Position numbers and translations under genes: made by a program. Shown here piece by piece: positions 9,255 through 51,296 of a stretch of DNA of 64,000 bases. Within the stretch, counting starts at the first letter, position 1, and every line of letters begins with the position of its first letter. Below the pieces are notes generated by a model. That model searched no databases. It was given only the letters and a program-made list of their open reading frames with translations, and was not told the DNA's origin. Origin of the DNA: an uncultured bacterium (lineage in GTDB: Bacteria > Verrucomicrobiota > Kiritimatiellia > PWTM01); contig CAKZPT010000079.1 of NCBI GenBank assembly GCA_937139365.1, positions 1-64,000 of the forward strand, in the 5' to 3' direction.

Positions 9255-9301
9255 TTCCAAGCATTGGAAGACTTGGCACTGCGGGCTTCCAAGGATTGGA
9301 A
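9255..9301. repeat. Two-unit array of TTCCAA-N3-TTGGAA palindromes, 32-bp pitch
   Basis: TTCCAAGCATTGGAA (9255-9269) and TTCCAAGGATTGGAA (9287-9301). Confidence 0.8.
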
Positions 9302-24918: not shown

Positions 24919-24965
24919 TTCCAACCCTTGGATAGTGTGACGGTCAGGAGTTCCAATCATTGAAA
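24919..24965. repeat. Two-unit array of TTCCAA-N3-TTGGAA-like palindromes, 32-bp pitch
   Basis: TTCCAACCCTTGGAT (24919-24933) and TTCCAATCATTGAAA (24951-24965). Confidence 0.7.
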
Positions 24966-43686: not shown

Positions 43687-45715
43687 TTACCCTCCGTGAA
43701 GGGCGGGGCGGGCGAGCTCGACGACCACCGCGCAGGGCCGGTCGTGGGGGCGGTCCAACAGGAACATGGCCTGCCATTTTAACGGCGGGTCGGGGCGGCC
43801 GTTTTGGTCGCCGCCCCACCAGTGGGCCCCGTCGGCGAACAGGCTCAGCCGGATCCACGTCCACTCGCCGTCGCGCGTCAGTTCGGCGGCGCGCGCCTGG
43901 AAGACCTCCCCGCTGCGGTCCTCAACGCGACAGGTGATCCGGCACGGATCGCCGACCGCGCGCGCCCAAAGGCCCAGCACCTCCGGCACGCCCTGGACGG
44001 ACGCCGCGTCGGGCGCGGAGGGCTGCACCGGAAAATAGGCATAGCCGGTGTCGGTGGTCACGGCGACGCACAGCGCCGGGCACGTCCACCCGGGCAGAAG
44101 CCCTTCCGCTGCGATCGCCCGCGCTTTCGCCCCATGGCGGGGTGCGGGGCGGCCGTCGGAGTTCATACGAACGCGATACCGGGCCGGATCGAACGGCTGG
44201 ATCGGCCGCCAGCGGGGGGCATCGGCCTGCGCGATGACGACCGATTCGAGCCATACCTCCGCCCGCGACACGGCGGCCGGCGCCGGCCGCCGCACCACGA
44301 CGCGTCCGGAGGGGAGGTCCAGCTCGTGGCGGGTCGCCGTCCCGTCAGCGCCGGCGATGCGCAGGGCGGCGCGAAGCGGCGGCCCGAACCCTTTCTCGAC
44401 AATCGCCACCATGTTGTCGTCCGAGGGGCCGGGCGCGACATCCAACGACGTGACGCGCCCGTCGGACCAGTCCCACTGTGTGGGGCGCTTCAATTCGCCC
44501 ACGGCGGCGGCGGGCACCGCGATATAGCACGGTGCGTCCGTCAGCCGCACCACGGCGTCGTTGCCCACGCGCGCCGGCGCGCCAAGGTGTCCCTCGAGAG
44601 GCGCACCGACCATGGATGCCGGCAGGCGCAGGTCGGCGCCGCCAGGATCGAGCGTCCACGCGGCCAGCCGCCAGCCGTGGGTCTCGCGATACAAGAGGAC
44701 CCAGTCGGCGGGCCTCGATCCGCCGTCGATCCGGGGCAGCGAACACCGGCGATCGAACCGGGCGTCGCCCAGGTGCCGGTGAAGCGTCACGGCGGCCACA
44801 TCGGCCGGCTTCGGTGCGAACGCCGGCACGGCGTTGGTGCGCCAGCGATGGGCGACCACGCCGAAATGATGTTCCGGGTCCTTCGGGTCCAACCCGTCGT
44901 CGCGCCAGTCGTACCAGATGGACAGCGGAATGCCGCAAGCCGCGTTGACCAGCCATTCCCGCGGCAACAGGCGCCCCTGGCGGTCGGCATCAAATTCCTC
45001 CCAGACGGCGGAATAGCCCCACTCGCCCGACAGGATGGGCACGGACCGTCCCGAGGGCGCGTATCGGGCGATCAGGTCCCGCAGCCGTCCGTACTCCGCC
45101 GCCACGGTTTCAGGGTCAGTCCGGCGGTAGGGATCACGGTCACGGCGTGCCAGTGCTCCAGCAGGCCGCCACGGAAGCATTCCTCGAGAAAGGCCCAGTC
45201 GATTTGCGAGACGGCGGGGCCGACGAGCCGCTCCTCCGGCGCGGCGGCGCGCACCTCGCGCGCGACGGCGCGCGCCAGCGCGATGTAATCGGTGACGTTG
45301 GGCGCCGGCTTCCAAAACTTTCTCAGGTTCGGCTCGTTCCAAAGTTCCCAGAGGTGTCCGCGGCCGCCGCCCACCGCGCGAAAGCCGCCCGTCCCTCTTC
45401 CGTGCGCGGCGCCTCGCCGTTGTCGTAATGGGGGTTGCCGTAGTCAAGGATCCAAAGCGCCCGCAGCCGATGGTCCGCGAGGGTGGCCGCCAGCCGGTCG
45501 TACGCCGAAAAATCGTACTCGCCGCGCCGCCGCTCGATCGCCGCCCAGAACATGTCCATCCGGACCCAGCCGACGCCCGTCGCCGCAAGGGTCTCCATCT
45601 CGCCCGGCCGCGGATCGGTGAAATGGATGTTCACGCCGCGTTCGTCGCCGCCGAAAACGCCGGCCGCGGCGGCCGCCCATACGGCCGCGCAAAATCGCCA
45701 TCGGGTCCGGAGCAT
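43687..45715 (-). pseudogene. Secreted glycoside hydrolase (WELWNEPN TIM-barrel type) with two frameshifts
   Basis: Fragments 45323..45715, 45072..45374 and 43687..~45130 on successive frames; GVGWVRMDMFWAAIE, LWELWNEPNLRKFW, ILSGEWGYSAVW. Confidence 0.75.
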
Positions 45716-45818: not shown

Positions 45819-46550
45819 ATGAACATGCATCGCGCGATCGCGCTGGCGGCCGCATCGGCGGCGATCAGGGTGGCAGCGGCCGACCTGAATCCAGCCGCGG
45901 TCCCGACCGATCGGATGACCAACGAATGGTGGGCGAAACGCCACGAGGCCAAACTGGCCGACCCGGCCCGCGCCGGCTGCCGGCTGCTGTTCCTCGGCGA
46001 CTCGATCACCCAGGGATGGGAGGGGCCGGGGAAGGCCGTGTGGGACCGCTACTACGCCCACCGCGCCCCGTTCAACCTCGGGTTCAGCGGCGACCGGACC
46101 GAGCATGTCCTCTGGCGCCTGGACCACGGCGAAATCGACGGCATGTCGCCGGAGTTGGTCATCCTAATGCTCGGCACGAACAACACCGGTCACCGGAAGG
46201 ATCCGCCCGACCACACGACCGAAGGCATGAAGCTGATACTCGATCGCCTGACCCGCCGGCTGCCTCAGGCCAAGGTCCTCTTGCTGGCGGTCTTTCCCAG
46301 GGAGGCGCGCCCCGATGGAGAGCTGCGCCGCATCAACGACGCACTCAACGAGCGGCTCAAGGCATTGGCGGATGGCGAACGGGTGATCTTCGTGGACATC
46401 AATGCGAAGTTCCTGGCGCCCGACGGCTCGCTCCCGACAGAGATCATGCCCGACTTCCTTCACCCGAAGGAACAAGGCTATGCAATCTGGGCCGCCGCCA
46501 TCGAGCCGTGGGTGTCGCGGATCCTCGGCGACACGCCCGTGGCGCCCTGA
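45819..46550 (+). CDS. SGNH/GDSL-type hydrolase (secreted acetylhydrolase-like)
   Basis: LLFLGDSITQGWEGPGK, GFSGDRTEHVLWRL, LMLGTNNTGH, MPDFLHPKEQGY. Confidence 0.9.
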   Translation: MNMHRAIALAAASAAIRVAAADLNPAAVPTDRMTNEWWAKRHEAKLADPARAGCRLLFLGDSITQGWEGPGKAVWDRYYAHRAPFNLGFSGDRTEHVLWRLDHGEIDGMSPELVILMLGTNNTGHRKDPPDHTTEGMKLILDRLTRRLPQAKVLLLAVFPREARPDGELRRINDALNERLKALADGERVIFVDINAKFLAPDGSLPTEIMPDFLHPKEQGYAIWAAAIEPWVSRILGDTPVAP

Positions 46551-46602
46551 CCGGGCCGCCGGTCCGCCGCTTCCCGGTCTCGGACACCGAACGGCGTCAG
46601 GT

Positions 46603-46681
46603 TTCCAAAGATTGGGCGCACTTCGCCGCGAAGTGTCCAACCATTGGACACACCTCGCCGGCCGGCCTCCAAGGATGGGAT
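46603..46681. repeat. Three-unit array of TTCCAA-N3-TTGGAA-like palindromes at exact 32-bp pitch
   Basis: TTCCAAAGATTGGGC (46603), GTCCAACCATTGGAC (46635), CTCCAAGGATGGGAT (46667); possible degenerate fourth unit TTCCCGGTCTCGGAC at 46571. Confidence 0.8.
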
Positions 46682-46715: not shown

Positions 46716-48485
46716 CTATTCCTCGACCAGCGTGCGGATGTGAACTTCCCGAAGCTGGCGCGGATCCACCCGCGACGGGGCGTTCATCATCAGGTCCACG
46801 GCCTTCTGCGTCTTCGGGAAGGCGATCACGTCCCGGATCGAGGCGGCGCCGACCATCAGCATCACGAGGCGGTCGAGCCCGAGGGCAATGCCCCCGTGCG
46901 GCGGCGCCCCGTAGCCGAGCGCCTGGATCAGGTGGCCGAAGCGATCGGCGATCTCTTCGTCTGGGAGGCCGAGCCGGCGGAACATCCGCTGCTGCAGCTC
47001 GGGATCGTGGATCCGGATGCTGCCGCCGCCCAGCTCCACACCGTTGAGCACGATGTCGTAAGCCAGCGCGCGCACGGAGAGCGGATCGGAGTCGAGCCGA
47101 TCGAGGTCCTCGGGGTGCGGCGCCGTGAACGGATGGTGCATGGCCTGAAGGCGGTTGTCCTCGCCGCGCTCGAACAGGGGAAATTCTGTGATCCAGACGA
47201 ACGCCATCGCATCGCCCGCGAGGGCGCCGGCCAGCTCTCCGCACATCAGCCGCAGGCGGCCCAGGAAGGGGTGGACCTTGTCCGCCTCGTCTGCGGCGAA
47301 GAGCACCAGATCCCCGGCCCGGATGTCGAGGCGCGAGGCCAGCTCGGCTTTCTCCCCCTCGCTGAGAAACTTCACGATCGGGGATTTCCAGGAGCCGTCC
47401 GGCTGGACGCGGATATGGGCGAGGCCGCCGAAACCCGACTGTTTGGCCAGTTCCGTCCATTCGTCGGTGACCCTCAACGGCACCTCGGCCAGGCCGGTGG
47501 CGTTGATGGCTTTCACGACATGCCCGCGCTCCACCGCCTGGGCGAACAGCTTGAAGGAGCTGCCCCGGAAGATGTCGGTCAGGTCGGTGATCGCCAAGCC
47601 GAACCGCAGATCGGGCTTGTCGCTGCCGTACCGGCTCATCGCCTCGGCGTAGGGCATCCTCGGAATCGGCGATGGGGGTTCGGGCCGGCCGGCGGCGCGG
47701 CAGACGTCCGCGAGCAGGCCGTCGACGAGGGTGTAGATGTCCTCCGGCTCGATGAACGACATTTCGATGTCGATCTGCGTGAACTCCGGCTGGCGATCCG
47801 CGCGAAGGTCCTCGTCCCGGAAGCAGCGCGCGATCTGCATGTAGCGATCCATGCCGGCCATCATCAGCAGTTGTTTGTACTGCTGCGGCGCCTGCGGCAG
47901 CGCATAGAACATGCCCGGGTTGACCCGGCTGGGCACCAGGTAGTCCCGCGCCCCCTCCGGCGTGCTCTTGGTGAGGATCGGCGTCTCGATCTCGAGGAAT
48001 CCGAGGCGATCGAAATACCGGCGCGCGGCCATCACGATGGCGTGGCGCTGCGCGAGGTTGGCCTGCATACGGGGTCGGCGCAGGTCGAGGTGGCGGTGGG
48101 TCAGTCGCAGGTCTTCCGCAACTCTGGCGGCCCCGGCGTCGTCCAACGGAAACGGCGGCGTGCGGCTTCGGTTGAGCAATTGGATCGCCGATCCGCGAAC
48201 CTCGATGGCGCCGGTCGCAAGGTTCGGGTTGACCATGTCCGCCGGTCGCGGCTCGACCACGCCTTCGACCCGTACGACGTATTCCGGCCGGGCCCGCTGG
48301 GCCTGCTCCCAAGCCGACTGCGAATCGCGGGGGTCGTACACCACCTGCGTGATGCCGTAGCGGTCGCGCAGGTCGATGAACACCAACCCACCGTGGTCGC
48401 GGACGGTGTCCACCCACCCGCACAACGCCACGCGCCGGCCGGCGTCGCCGATCCGCAGATCTCCGCAGGTATGGGTCCGCATCAT
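46716..48485 (-). CDS. aspS: Aspartyl-tRNA synthetase
   Basis: MMRTHTCGDLRIGDAGRRVALCGWVDTVRDHGGLVFIDLRDRYGITQVV; class II motifs. Confidence 0.97.
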   Translation of the reverse strand: MMRTHTCGDLRIGDAGRRVALCGWVDTVRDHGGLVFIDLRDRYGITQVVYDPRDSQSAWEQAQRARPEYVVRVEGVVEPRPADMVNPNLATGAIEVRGSAIQLLNRSRTPPFPLDDAGAARVAEDLRLTHRHLDLRRPRMQANLAQRHAIVMAARRYFDRLGFLEIETPILTKSTPEGARDYLVPSRVNPGMFYALPQAPQQYKQLLMMAGMDRYMQIARCFRDEDLRADRQPEFTQIDIEMSFIEPEDIYTLVDGLLADVCRAAGRPEPPSPIPRMPYAEAMSRYGSDKPDLRFGLAITDLTDIFRGSSFKLFAQAVERGHVVKAINATGLAEVPLRVTDEWTELAKQSGFGGLAHIRVQPDGSWKSPIVKFLSEGEKAELASRLDIRAGDLVLFAADEADKVHPFLGRLRLMCGELAGALAGDAMAFVWITEFPLFERGEDNRLQAMHHPFTAPHPEDLDRLDSDPLSVRALAYDIVLNGVELGGGSIRIHDPELQQRMFRRLGLPDEEIADRFGHLIQALGYGAPPHGGIALGLDRLVMLMVGAASIRDVIAFPKTQKAVDLMMNAPSRVDPRQLREVHIRTLVEE

Positions 48486-48721: not shown

Positions 48722-50263
48722 TCATGCGCCGCCGAGCGGATGCGATGCGTCGCCGTCCCACACGGATGGCAGCGGATGGCCGGGCTCCGCCGAGGCCGAG
48801 GGACCAAACTGCTCGTGGAACCACACTTTGTAGGGGTTGGCGGTCGCCAGGGGCACGTCCTCGTTGCACATGCAGGACCGGACCGAACGCCACCACTCGT
48901 CGTGCGCGCCGGCCAGCTCTGCCACGAGTCCGGGGCGGGCAGCCGCGATATCGCGAGATTCGGCAGGGTCCGTCTCGAGGTCGAACAGCTGCCACGCCGC
49001 AGGTCGGTGGGGCGGCGAGACGGACACCAGGTGGTGGCGGCCGCGACGGACCGTGCACTGGATGAACTTGTACTCATCGAAATTGGCGCACCGCGGCCAA
49101 CGGCCGAGGTGGCTGAACAGCGTCCGCTGCGGCCAGTCCGCCGTCGGATCGGCCAGAAGCGGCGCCAAGCTGCGTCCCTCCCATCCGGCGCGCACCGCGT
49201 CGGGCACGGGGACGCGGGCGATGTCGGTCAGCGTGGCGAACAGGTCAACGTGCGCCGCCAGACGCTCGCAATCGGCAGGCCGGATGCGGCTGGGCCAGTG
49301 CGCGAACAGCGGCACCCTCGTGCCGCCCAGCCACGGCGTGCCCTTGGCCCCGCGCATCCCCGCGTTGAACACCTGGGCGCCGGCGCTGCCGTTGTCCGTG
49401 AGATAGAGCCGCAACGTGTTCTCCACTCACCCCCACTGGGCCGGCGCCTCTCGAGGCCGGCCGACGTTGTCGTCGATGTTTTCGATCATCCCGTAGAAGC
49501 CCTCGATCTTCTCCGGCACGCGGCCCGCAAATCCCCGGCGGTAGGTCTCCGGAGCGTGGTGCAGCACATAGGGTGCGTTCGGCGCGATCTACGCGAAGAA
49601 TGGGCCGCGCCCGCGGCGCGAGCCGATCCAGCGGATCGCTTGCGCAAAAAGAGCATCGGTGCAGAACCCCTTCGTGCGGACGAAGCGGCCGTTGTGACGC
49701 ACCACCGGATCGAAGTACGTGTTGCCCGGCACGTCGCCGCAACTGCCCTCGTAGGTCTGTCCGATCCCGCCGCCACCGTGAATGAAGACCTCGTCGAAGC
49801 CGCGGCGCGCGGGCTGGTAGGGCGCCTCGTCGCCCAGATGCCATTTGCCGAACGCACCGGTCGCGTAACCCGCCGCCCGGAGCACCTGAGGCAGCGTGAC
49901 GGCCTCCAGGCTCATCCGTTCGCGCTCCAGGATCGTGTGCGTCACGCCGAAGCGGAACTCGTGGCGGCCGGTCATGATCGCACACCTCGTTGGCGCGCAG
50001 GTGGGGCCGACGTGGAAGTCGGTGAACCTCACGCTCTCCGCGTGGAGCCGGTCGAGGTGCGGCGTGCGGAGCAACGGGTTGCCGTGGCAGGCCAGGTCGC
50101 CATAGCCTTGGTCGTCCGGGATGACGACGACGATGTTCGGCCGGTCTGTGTCAGCCGCCCGGACCATCCGCCCCGCCCAACCGGCGCCGGCCGCGGTCGC
50201 CGCGCGCGCCAAAAACTGTCGCCGCCCAAGTCCGTTACGCCATCGCGCGATGCCGTTGGCCAT
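48722..50263 (-). pseudogene. Arylsulfatase (CAPTR Cys-type) with two in-frame stops
   Basis: GPTCAPTRCAIMTGRH active site; GKWHLG; TAG at 49589-49591 (expected Tyr in PFFAY) and TGA at 49427-49429; frame otherwise continuous. Confidence 0.8.
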
Positions 50264-50295
50264 GACCGTCCTCCTTGATCCCGCGCATCGATCGA

Positions 50296-51296
50296 TCACC
50301 CGGCCGCGACGATGTCCGCGTCGAACTCCAACCGGATCACGAGCACCTCATTGGCCCGCTCGTTCACAGGCAGACGCCACAGCCGCAGGTACGCCGTCTG
50401 CTCCCGGTGGTCGCTCGGCAGCATCTCGACCGACCGCCGCACCGCCTCGCCCGTGTTGAGGAGAACCGCCCTCGCCGGCGCCGTCCGCATCGGGTTCAGC
50501 TTCACGGCGTTGCAAAGCCGACGCCTCGGCCGCTTTCGCGTCGTACTCGCGCTCCGGCGTCCCGAAGTCCCCCTCGTCGAACCCACGGTTGTTGATGACG
50601 ATCCCGGGCTGCAGCTCGCGGATCATCGCGTTCACCGACGGGTCGCGGTGTTGCGGCACATTCATGTCCCACCAGAACCCGTGGATCCGACCGTAGTTCG
50701 TGCACAGTTCCCGCACCTGCTCGCGCAAGAAGTCCATGTAGCGATCCCAGTCCGGCGTGTCCCCCGGCTGCGGCGGCAGCTCGTGATGCCGGCCCTGGTT
50801 GGGATAGCAGGGGTGGGTCCAGTCGGCGATCGAAAGGCACAACGGCATGCGGCGCCGGTGGCCGGCGTCGGCGAGCATCGCCAGCACGTCCCTCCCGTAC
50901 GGCGTGTTCATTGTGTTGAACGCCGTCTGCCGGGTGTCCCACAAGCAGAAGCCGTCGTGGTGCTTGGTCGTGAAACACACGTACCGCATACCGGCCTCGG
51001 CGGCGAGGTCCAGCCATTGGTCGAGATCGTAGTGCCGCGGCTTCCACTGCCGGGCCAGCCTCACGTATTCTGCTAGCGGCGCCCGCCCCCGCCATTGTTC
51101 CTGCTCGTGAACCCCCCGAATGGCGACCCCAGTGGATGAACAGGCCGAACCGCGCTTCGAAAAACCAGTCGCGCCGGTCCCTGAACCGCGGGATGCCCGC
51201 CCGACGCACCGCCGCCGGGGCCGACGGCGCCGCCGCACCGCTCGCGCCCGCCGCCAGCGCCGCCGCACTTCCTGCCAGAAACCGCCGCCGGTTCAC
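50296..51296 (-). pseudogene. Alpha-L-fucosidase (GH29-like), frameshifted and internally truncated
   Basis: FFEARFGLFIHWG | VAIRGVHEQEQW...MRYVCFTTKHHDGFCLWDT...GIVINNRGFDEGDFGTPE; then a frameshift to a short C-terminal piece. Confidence 0.8.

Follow-up and report, generated by a model that had tools for sequence, protein, structure and literature searches.

Helically phased palindrome arrays in Kiritimatiellia as candidate sites of a chromosome-architecture protein

Results

The stretch of DNA analysed here (64,000 nucleotides, referred to as the window) carries a GDSL/SGNH hydrolase gene and aspS in convergent orientation, a setting that the preliminary description of this DNA had named and that the coordinates and strands of both genes confirm (Table 1). 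Between them lie three 15-bp palindromic units, which follow each other at steps of exactly 32 bp. Read directly from the sequence, all three fit KTCCAA-NSN-TTGGAM, the palindrome with G/C-rich centre that characterizes the array units of this genome. With up to two mismatches to TCCAANNATTGGA allowed, 24 matches are found in the window compared to 5.5 in shuffled sequences, and no shuffle reached 24. With up to three mismatches to TTCCAANNNTTGGAA, the window contains four pairs and one triple of units at exactly 32 bp, while 60 dinucleotide shuffles contain none. The phased array claimed in the preliminary description was thus recovered with three of its "three, possibly four" units. The fourth, one further step upstream, is weaker. 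Its 8 of 12 consensus bases are reached by just 4 of about 2300 positions flanking other arrays of the same genome, and by none of 92 positions at +/-32 bp from those arrays, which yields a p of about 0.004, calculated after the fact; a decayed fourth unit is no more than plausible as judged from the sequence. Among seven relatives compared, none has a counterpart of this array beside aspS.

Table 1. Coordinates of the array units, further arrays and flanking genes (window positions unless a locus is named)
Feature	Position	Strand	Remarks
Palindromic unit 1, TTCCAAAGATTGGGC	46603..46617	.	1 mismatch vs TCCAANNATTGGA
Palindromic unit 2, GTCCAACCATTGGAC	46635..46649	.	0 mismatches vs TCCAANNATTGGA
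Palindromic unit 3, CTCCAAGGATGGGAT	46667..46681	.	1 mismatch vs TCCAANNATTGGA
Candidate decayed fourth unit, TTCCCGGTCTCGGAC	46571..46585	.	8/12 consensus bases, exact 32-bp step
Two-unit array of the same kind	9255..9301	.	32-bp step
Two-unit array of the same kind	24919..24965	.	32-bp step, in divergent gap
GDSL/SGNH hydrolase gene	45819..46550	+	PF13472, E 2e-33
aspS	46716..48485	-	PF00152, E 5e-119, and GAD domain
Mixed-step array	L177:7089-7256		
Mixed-step array	L063:7587-7723		
Mixed-step array	L054:2704-2840		
Mixed-step array	L253:6849-6985		

Two further features of this region were noted. A separate inverted repeat, GCACTTCGCCGCGAAGTG (46618-46636), occupies the spacer between units 1 and 2 and may be a local transcript-end hairpin; there is no T-run at this position. 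Moreover, a glycosidase-like gene (43687-45715) and a sulfatase-like gene (48722-50299) are each split over several reading frames and look like pseudogenes or assembly errors.

A survey of motif and spacing over the genome and its relatives had been proposed in the preliminary description, with a lack of phased units elsewhere as the outcome that would speak against an array; the result was the opposite. The genome (2.82 Mb, 117 contigs) contains 78 matches to TCCAANNATTGGA, both strands counted, and 65 strict pairs, compared to none for the reversed control pattern; of the KTCCAA-NSN-TTGGAM kind there are 71 pairs, again with no control match. All nine genomes of the family have pairs (10 to 110 per genome), and in several other genomes a longer motif, TTTTCCAA-N3-TTGGAAAA, is found. 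Within Kiritimatiellia, a class name inferred for this genome set from record titles (Kiritimatiellae/Kiritimatiellia, or older labels such as Lentisphaerae), pairs are present in 84 of 288 genomes, with a maximum of 1764 in one genome, and the control pattern has matches in one genome only. The distribution is patchy, several families of the class being free of arrays. In other classes of the phylum 5 of 194 genomes show pairs, with one to three each, and viral sequences contribute four stretches among 2.9 million contigs. One genome available as a single contig of 3.88 Mb (G079, contig C1) has 73 of its 112 units in coding DNA, often as single units, and in this contrasts with the genome of the window and with G012, whose arrays are paired and mainly intergenic.

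The outer pair of the middle unit, G/C, had been described as a compensatory-looking change. In the array units of the same genome, however, the outer bases vary independently, the combinations T-A, T-C, G-A and G-C occurring 43, 18, 16 and 8 times (Fisher p=0.80), and the check for covariation of half-sites was negative within this genome. Pooled over genomes, symmetric double mismatches number 17 compared to 4.6 expected, 14 of the 17 affecting the outermost pair. We rejected this excess as covariation, since in the window's own genome T and G are interchangeable at the outermost position and no covariation is seen there.

Spacings between units correspond to whole helical turns (21-22, 31-32, 42, 52-53 and 62-64 bp). 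A spacing of 32 bp is nearly exclusive in the window's own genome; other genomes use 31 and 32 bp, some also 22 bp. When spacings of 30-33 bp are left out, the remainder still falls at multiples of 10.5 bp with a mean phase of zero, both in genomes not chosen by spacing (Rayleigh R 0.72, p ~1e-4) and in the GTDB loci (R 0.73, p 2.5e-6). Spacings that would include a half turn (26-27 or 36-37 bp) are absent from the sets analysed. The spacers between units diverge freely, and neither spacers nor flanks are conserved among the arrays of the window's genome. Whole-turn spacing is the signature expected of proteins that line up along one helix face; in RNA there is no reason for it.

Some arrays of six to seven units (mixed-step arrays, Table 1) mix two-turn steps of 22 bp with steps of 30-31 bp, the 22-bp step often standing at the ends. 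In another locus (L142:616-771, SKLK01000250.1) an hddC-like gene contains six identical TTCCAACGATTGGA cores at 31-bp steps, with similar spacers and an open frame, which suggests, as far as the sequence goes, that arrays may grow by tandem duplication with the reading frame intact.

To describe the placement of units on the chromosome, densities per kb were determined for coding DNA and for the gaps between tandem, divergent and convergent genes. In the window's genome these amount to 0.04, 0.59, 0.64 and 1.12, respectively, in a sample of 728 kb mostly picked for carrying arrays, so that the absolute values are inflated while the comparison between gap types is unaffected. A contig of G012 shows the same order (0.03, 4.2, 8.6 and 14.1). 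Genes were called by a simple codon-usage caller, and single gene contexts may thus be wrong. Neither an enrichment upstream of starts nor an absence from convergent gaps, as promoter operators would show, was found. Given this lack of promoter preference, the convergent position of the window array is ordinary for the system, and the earlier judgement that its placement is unlike that of a promoter operator is borne out. Along one complete genome the loci were not distinguishable from random as regards macrodomains or regular spacing, and 21 samples of it revealed no origin or terminus bias. Domain structure hence lends an architectural role no support; random placement on one complete chromosome is neutral in this respect and neither supports nor excludes such a role.

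Arrays also occur inside genes, among them hemW, an hddC-like nucleotidyltransferase gene and carA. In the hddC-like gene a pair occupies identical codons in five genomes with a diverged spacer, and the corresponding position in a distant relative is occupied by an array of six units. All five genomes retain the glutamine codon CAA and the leucine codon TTG at the first unit of the pair, even though these account for a minority of their codon families in this GC-rich genome (17% and 11%); the nominal product of the codon frequencies, 2e-9, is overstated because the genomes are related. In hemW the array is recognisable in six of eight family genomes compared and missing in two, with no indel at the site. 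In carA a perfect pair lies over the conserved LPTFGICFGHQ codons of G149, is partly decayed in G007 and G020 and does not exist in the window's genome, G214 and G245, again with no indel. Carriers and non-carriers without indels imply that the sites arise and decay in place. Judged from these alignments, the same codons being used and rare ones kept are direct signs of selection at the DNA level on sites within genes.

Class-wide, genes adjacent to arrays are orthologous to other array neighbours in 25 pairs compared to 12.2 expected (p 0.0005), a number that includes a few pairs from close relatives and some that share one array. In recurrent pairs the array lies mostly on the same side of the gene. 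Spacer similarity by itself had no power to match arrays between genomes, apart from one suggestive case inside a gene, that of a methyltransferase (L195).

Discussion

The recurrence of arrays beside the same orthologues makes a global transcription regulator the main and a serious rival to an architectural reading. Such a protein would bind cooperatively and control many housekeeping genes by repression, roadblock or activation, whether from a promoter, within the gene body or at the 3' end. In line with this, some arrays lie just upstream of start codons, pyrE being an example in three distant genomes, and an array of four units immediately precedes carA in the window's own genome, where relatives have theirs inside the gene. 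However, the unit density of convergent gaps equals or exceeds that of divergent ones, arrays lie within genes and the array-neighbouring genes have, by eye, no common function. We consider a global regulator rather unlikely. With autoregulation in mind, we also inspected by eye the surroundings of the largest arrays and the recurrent neighbours, and no common DNA-binding protein was evident there.

Alternatively, the palindromes could mark self-DNA, like uptake sequences or Chi-like sites, and be recognised by machinery for uptake, repair or defence. Their very high copy number, which in G079 extends to coding DNA, and the near absence of arrays from viral contigs would fit. A mark of this kind, however, needs neither whole-turn pairing nor conserved positions, and viruses of the class are possibly just few in the collection; we regard this reading as improbable.

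The two alternatives raised in the preliminary description, a mobile repeat and an RNA hairpin array, fail direct tests. A mobile or selfish palindrome (of REP, MITE or Rickettsia type) that spreads through the genome by copying would account for high copy number, patchiness among relatives and long arrays such as that of L142, whose similar spacers look tandemly duplicated. Different arrays, however, have no spacers or flanks in common, the hemW and carA sites were gained or decayed without indels, and the window's own genus is rich in arrays and has no Y1/RAYT transposase; we regard the mobile-element reading as largely refuted and very improbable. RNA hairpins at transcript ends or within messages are highly improbable: the transcribed window region does fold better than shuffles (z -3.2), partly due to the palindromes and partly to the spacer hairpin between units 1 and 2, but covariation between half-sites is lacking in this genome, units are as dense in divergent gaps as in tandem ones, an intrinsic terminator pattern, a T-run and Rfam matches are all absent, and the helical phasing would go unexplained.

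We return to a protein that would read the arrays as DNA. Each 15-bp KTCCAA-NSN-TTGGAM palindrome would bind one dimer of a putative sequence-specific protein. As neighbouring units are three (sometimes two, four or five) turns apart, adjacent dimers would share one face of the DNA and hence be able to touch and to bind cooperatively. Dispersed over every type of intergenic gap and the inside of genes, such arrays could serve chromosome architecture, i.e. anchoring, looping, compaction or segregation, which appears more likely than control of one promoter. This reading, in which a dimeric protein occupies the arrays cooperatively along one helix face and probably serves chromosome architecture, has in our estimation about even chances of being correct. 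A nucleoid or chromosome-organisation site had been among the options of the preliminary description, and the scattered sites without promoter bias, some of them in genes, keep it worth considering.

Several known systems invite comparison. At Noc, SlmA and MatP sites, a dimeric chromosome-organising protein recognises palindromes that are dispersed. The present sites are likewise dispersed palindromes; they differ in sequence, and no origin or terminus bias was seen here in the 21 samples. Noc-type sites were considered and rejected, since the window's genome has one HTH_ParB match and no second ParB, and a single match is the usual state in carriers as well as in non-carriers. REP/BIME elements with a RAYT transposase are short palindromes, often intergenic and grouped. 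Short grouped palindromes are found here as well, whereas the spacers are not copied and the sites evolve by substitution. This candidate was likewise discarded: the array carriers G000, G007, G020, G291 and G149 have zero PF01797 matches, and copies in the window's genome share no sequence beyond the palindrome. HIP1 of cyanobacteria is a very abundant, lineage-specific palindrome, whose fixed octamers do not form helically phased arrays. The lineage-specific abundance is alike, while the present motif is a palindrome interrupted by a free centre and repeated at fixed spacing.

Of the concepts found, SegB of Thermoproteota comes closest. Its palindromes, of 13 bp with G or C at the centre, occur chromosome-wide, mostly off promoters and often within genes, with 46 motif sites in S. 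solfataricus, and the protein is linked to chromosome organisation (PMC12284271). The arrays are likewise scattered palindromes with central G or C, free of promoter bias and also present within genes. The Kiritimatiellia sites differ in sequence and lineage, reach far higher copy numbers and form helically phased arrays, of which the text consulted on SegB makes no mention. A search by motif strings and taxon, with most subscription journals and bioRxiv outside its coverage, found no published description of the motif, and the palindrome arrays are apparently a large set of DNA sites new to the literature.

In a wider and more tentative formulation, with chances somewhat short of even, Kiritimatiellia may own a chromosome-architecture system in which a putative protein assembles on phased arrays at tens to >1000 loci, with sites selected even within the codons of conserved enzymes. 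To our knowledge, sequence-specific chromosome-organising sites are known from few bacteria and were mostly discovered via the protein. Here the sites have been seen before the protein, over much of a poorly studied class and together with a physical rule, that of whole turns. The putative binding protein and its role thereby become searchable, and, as a warning, such sites would shape codon choice in these genomes.
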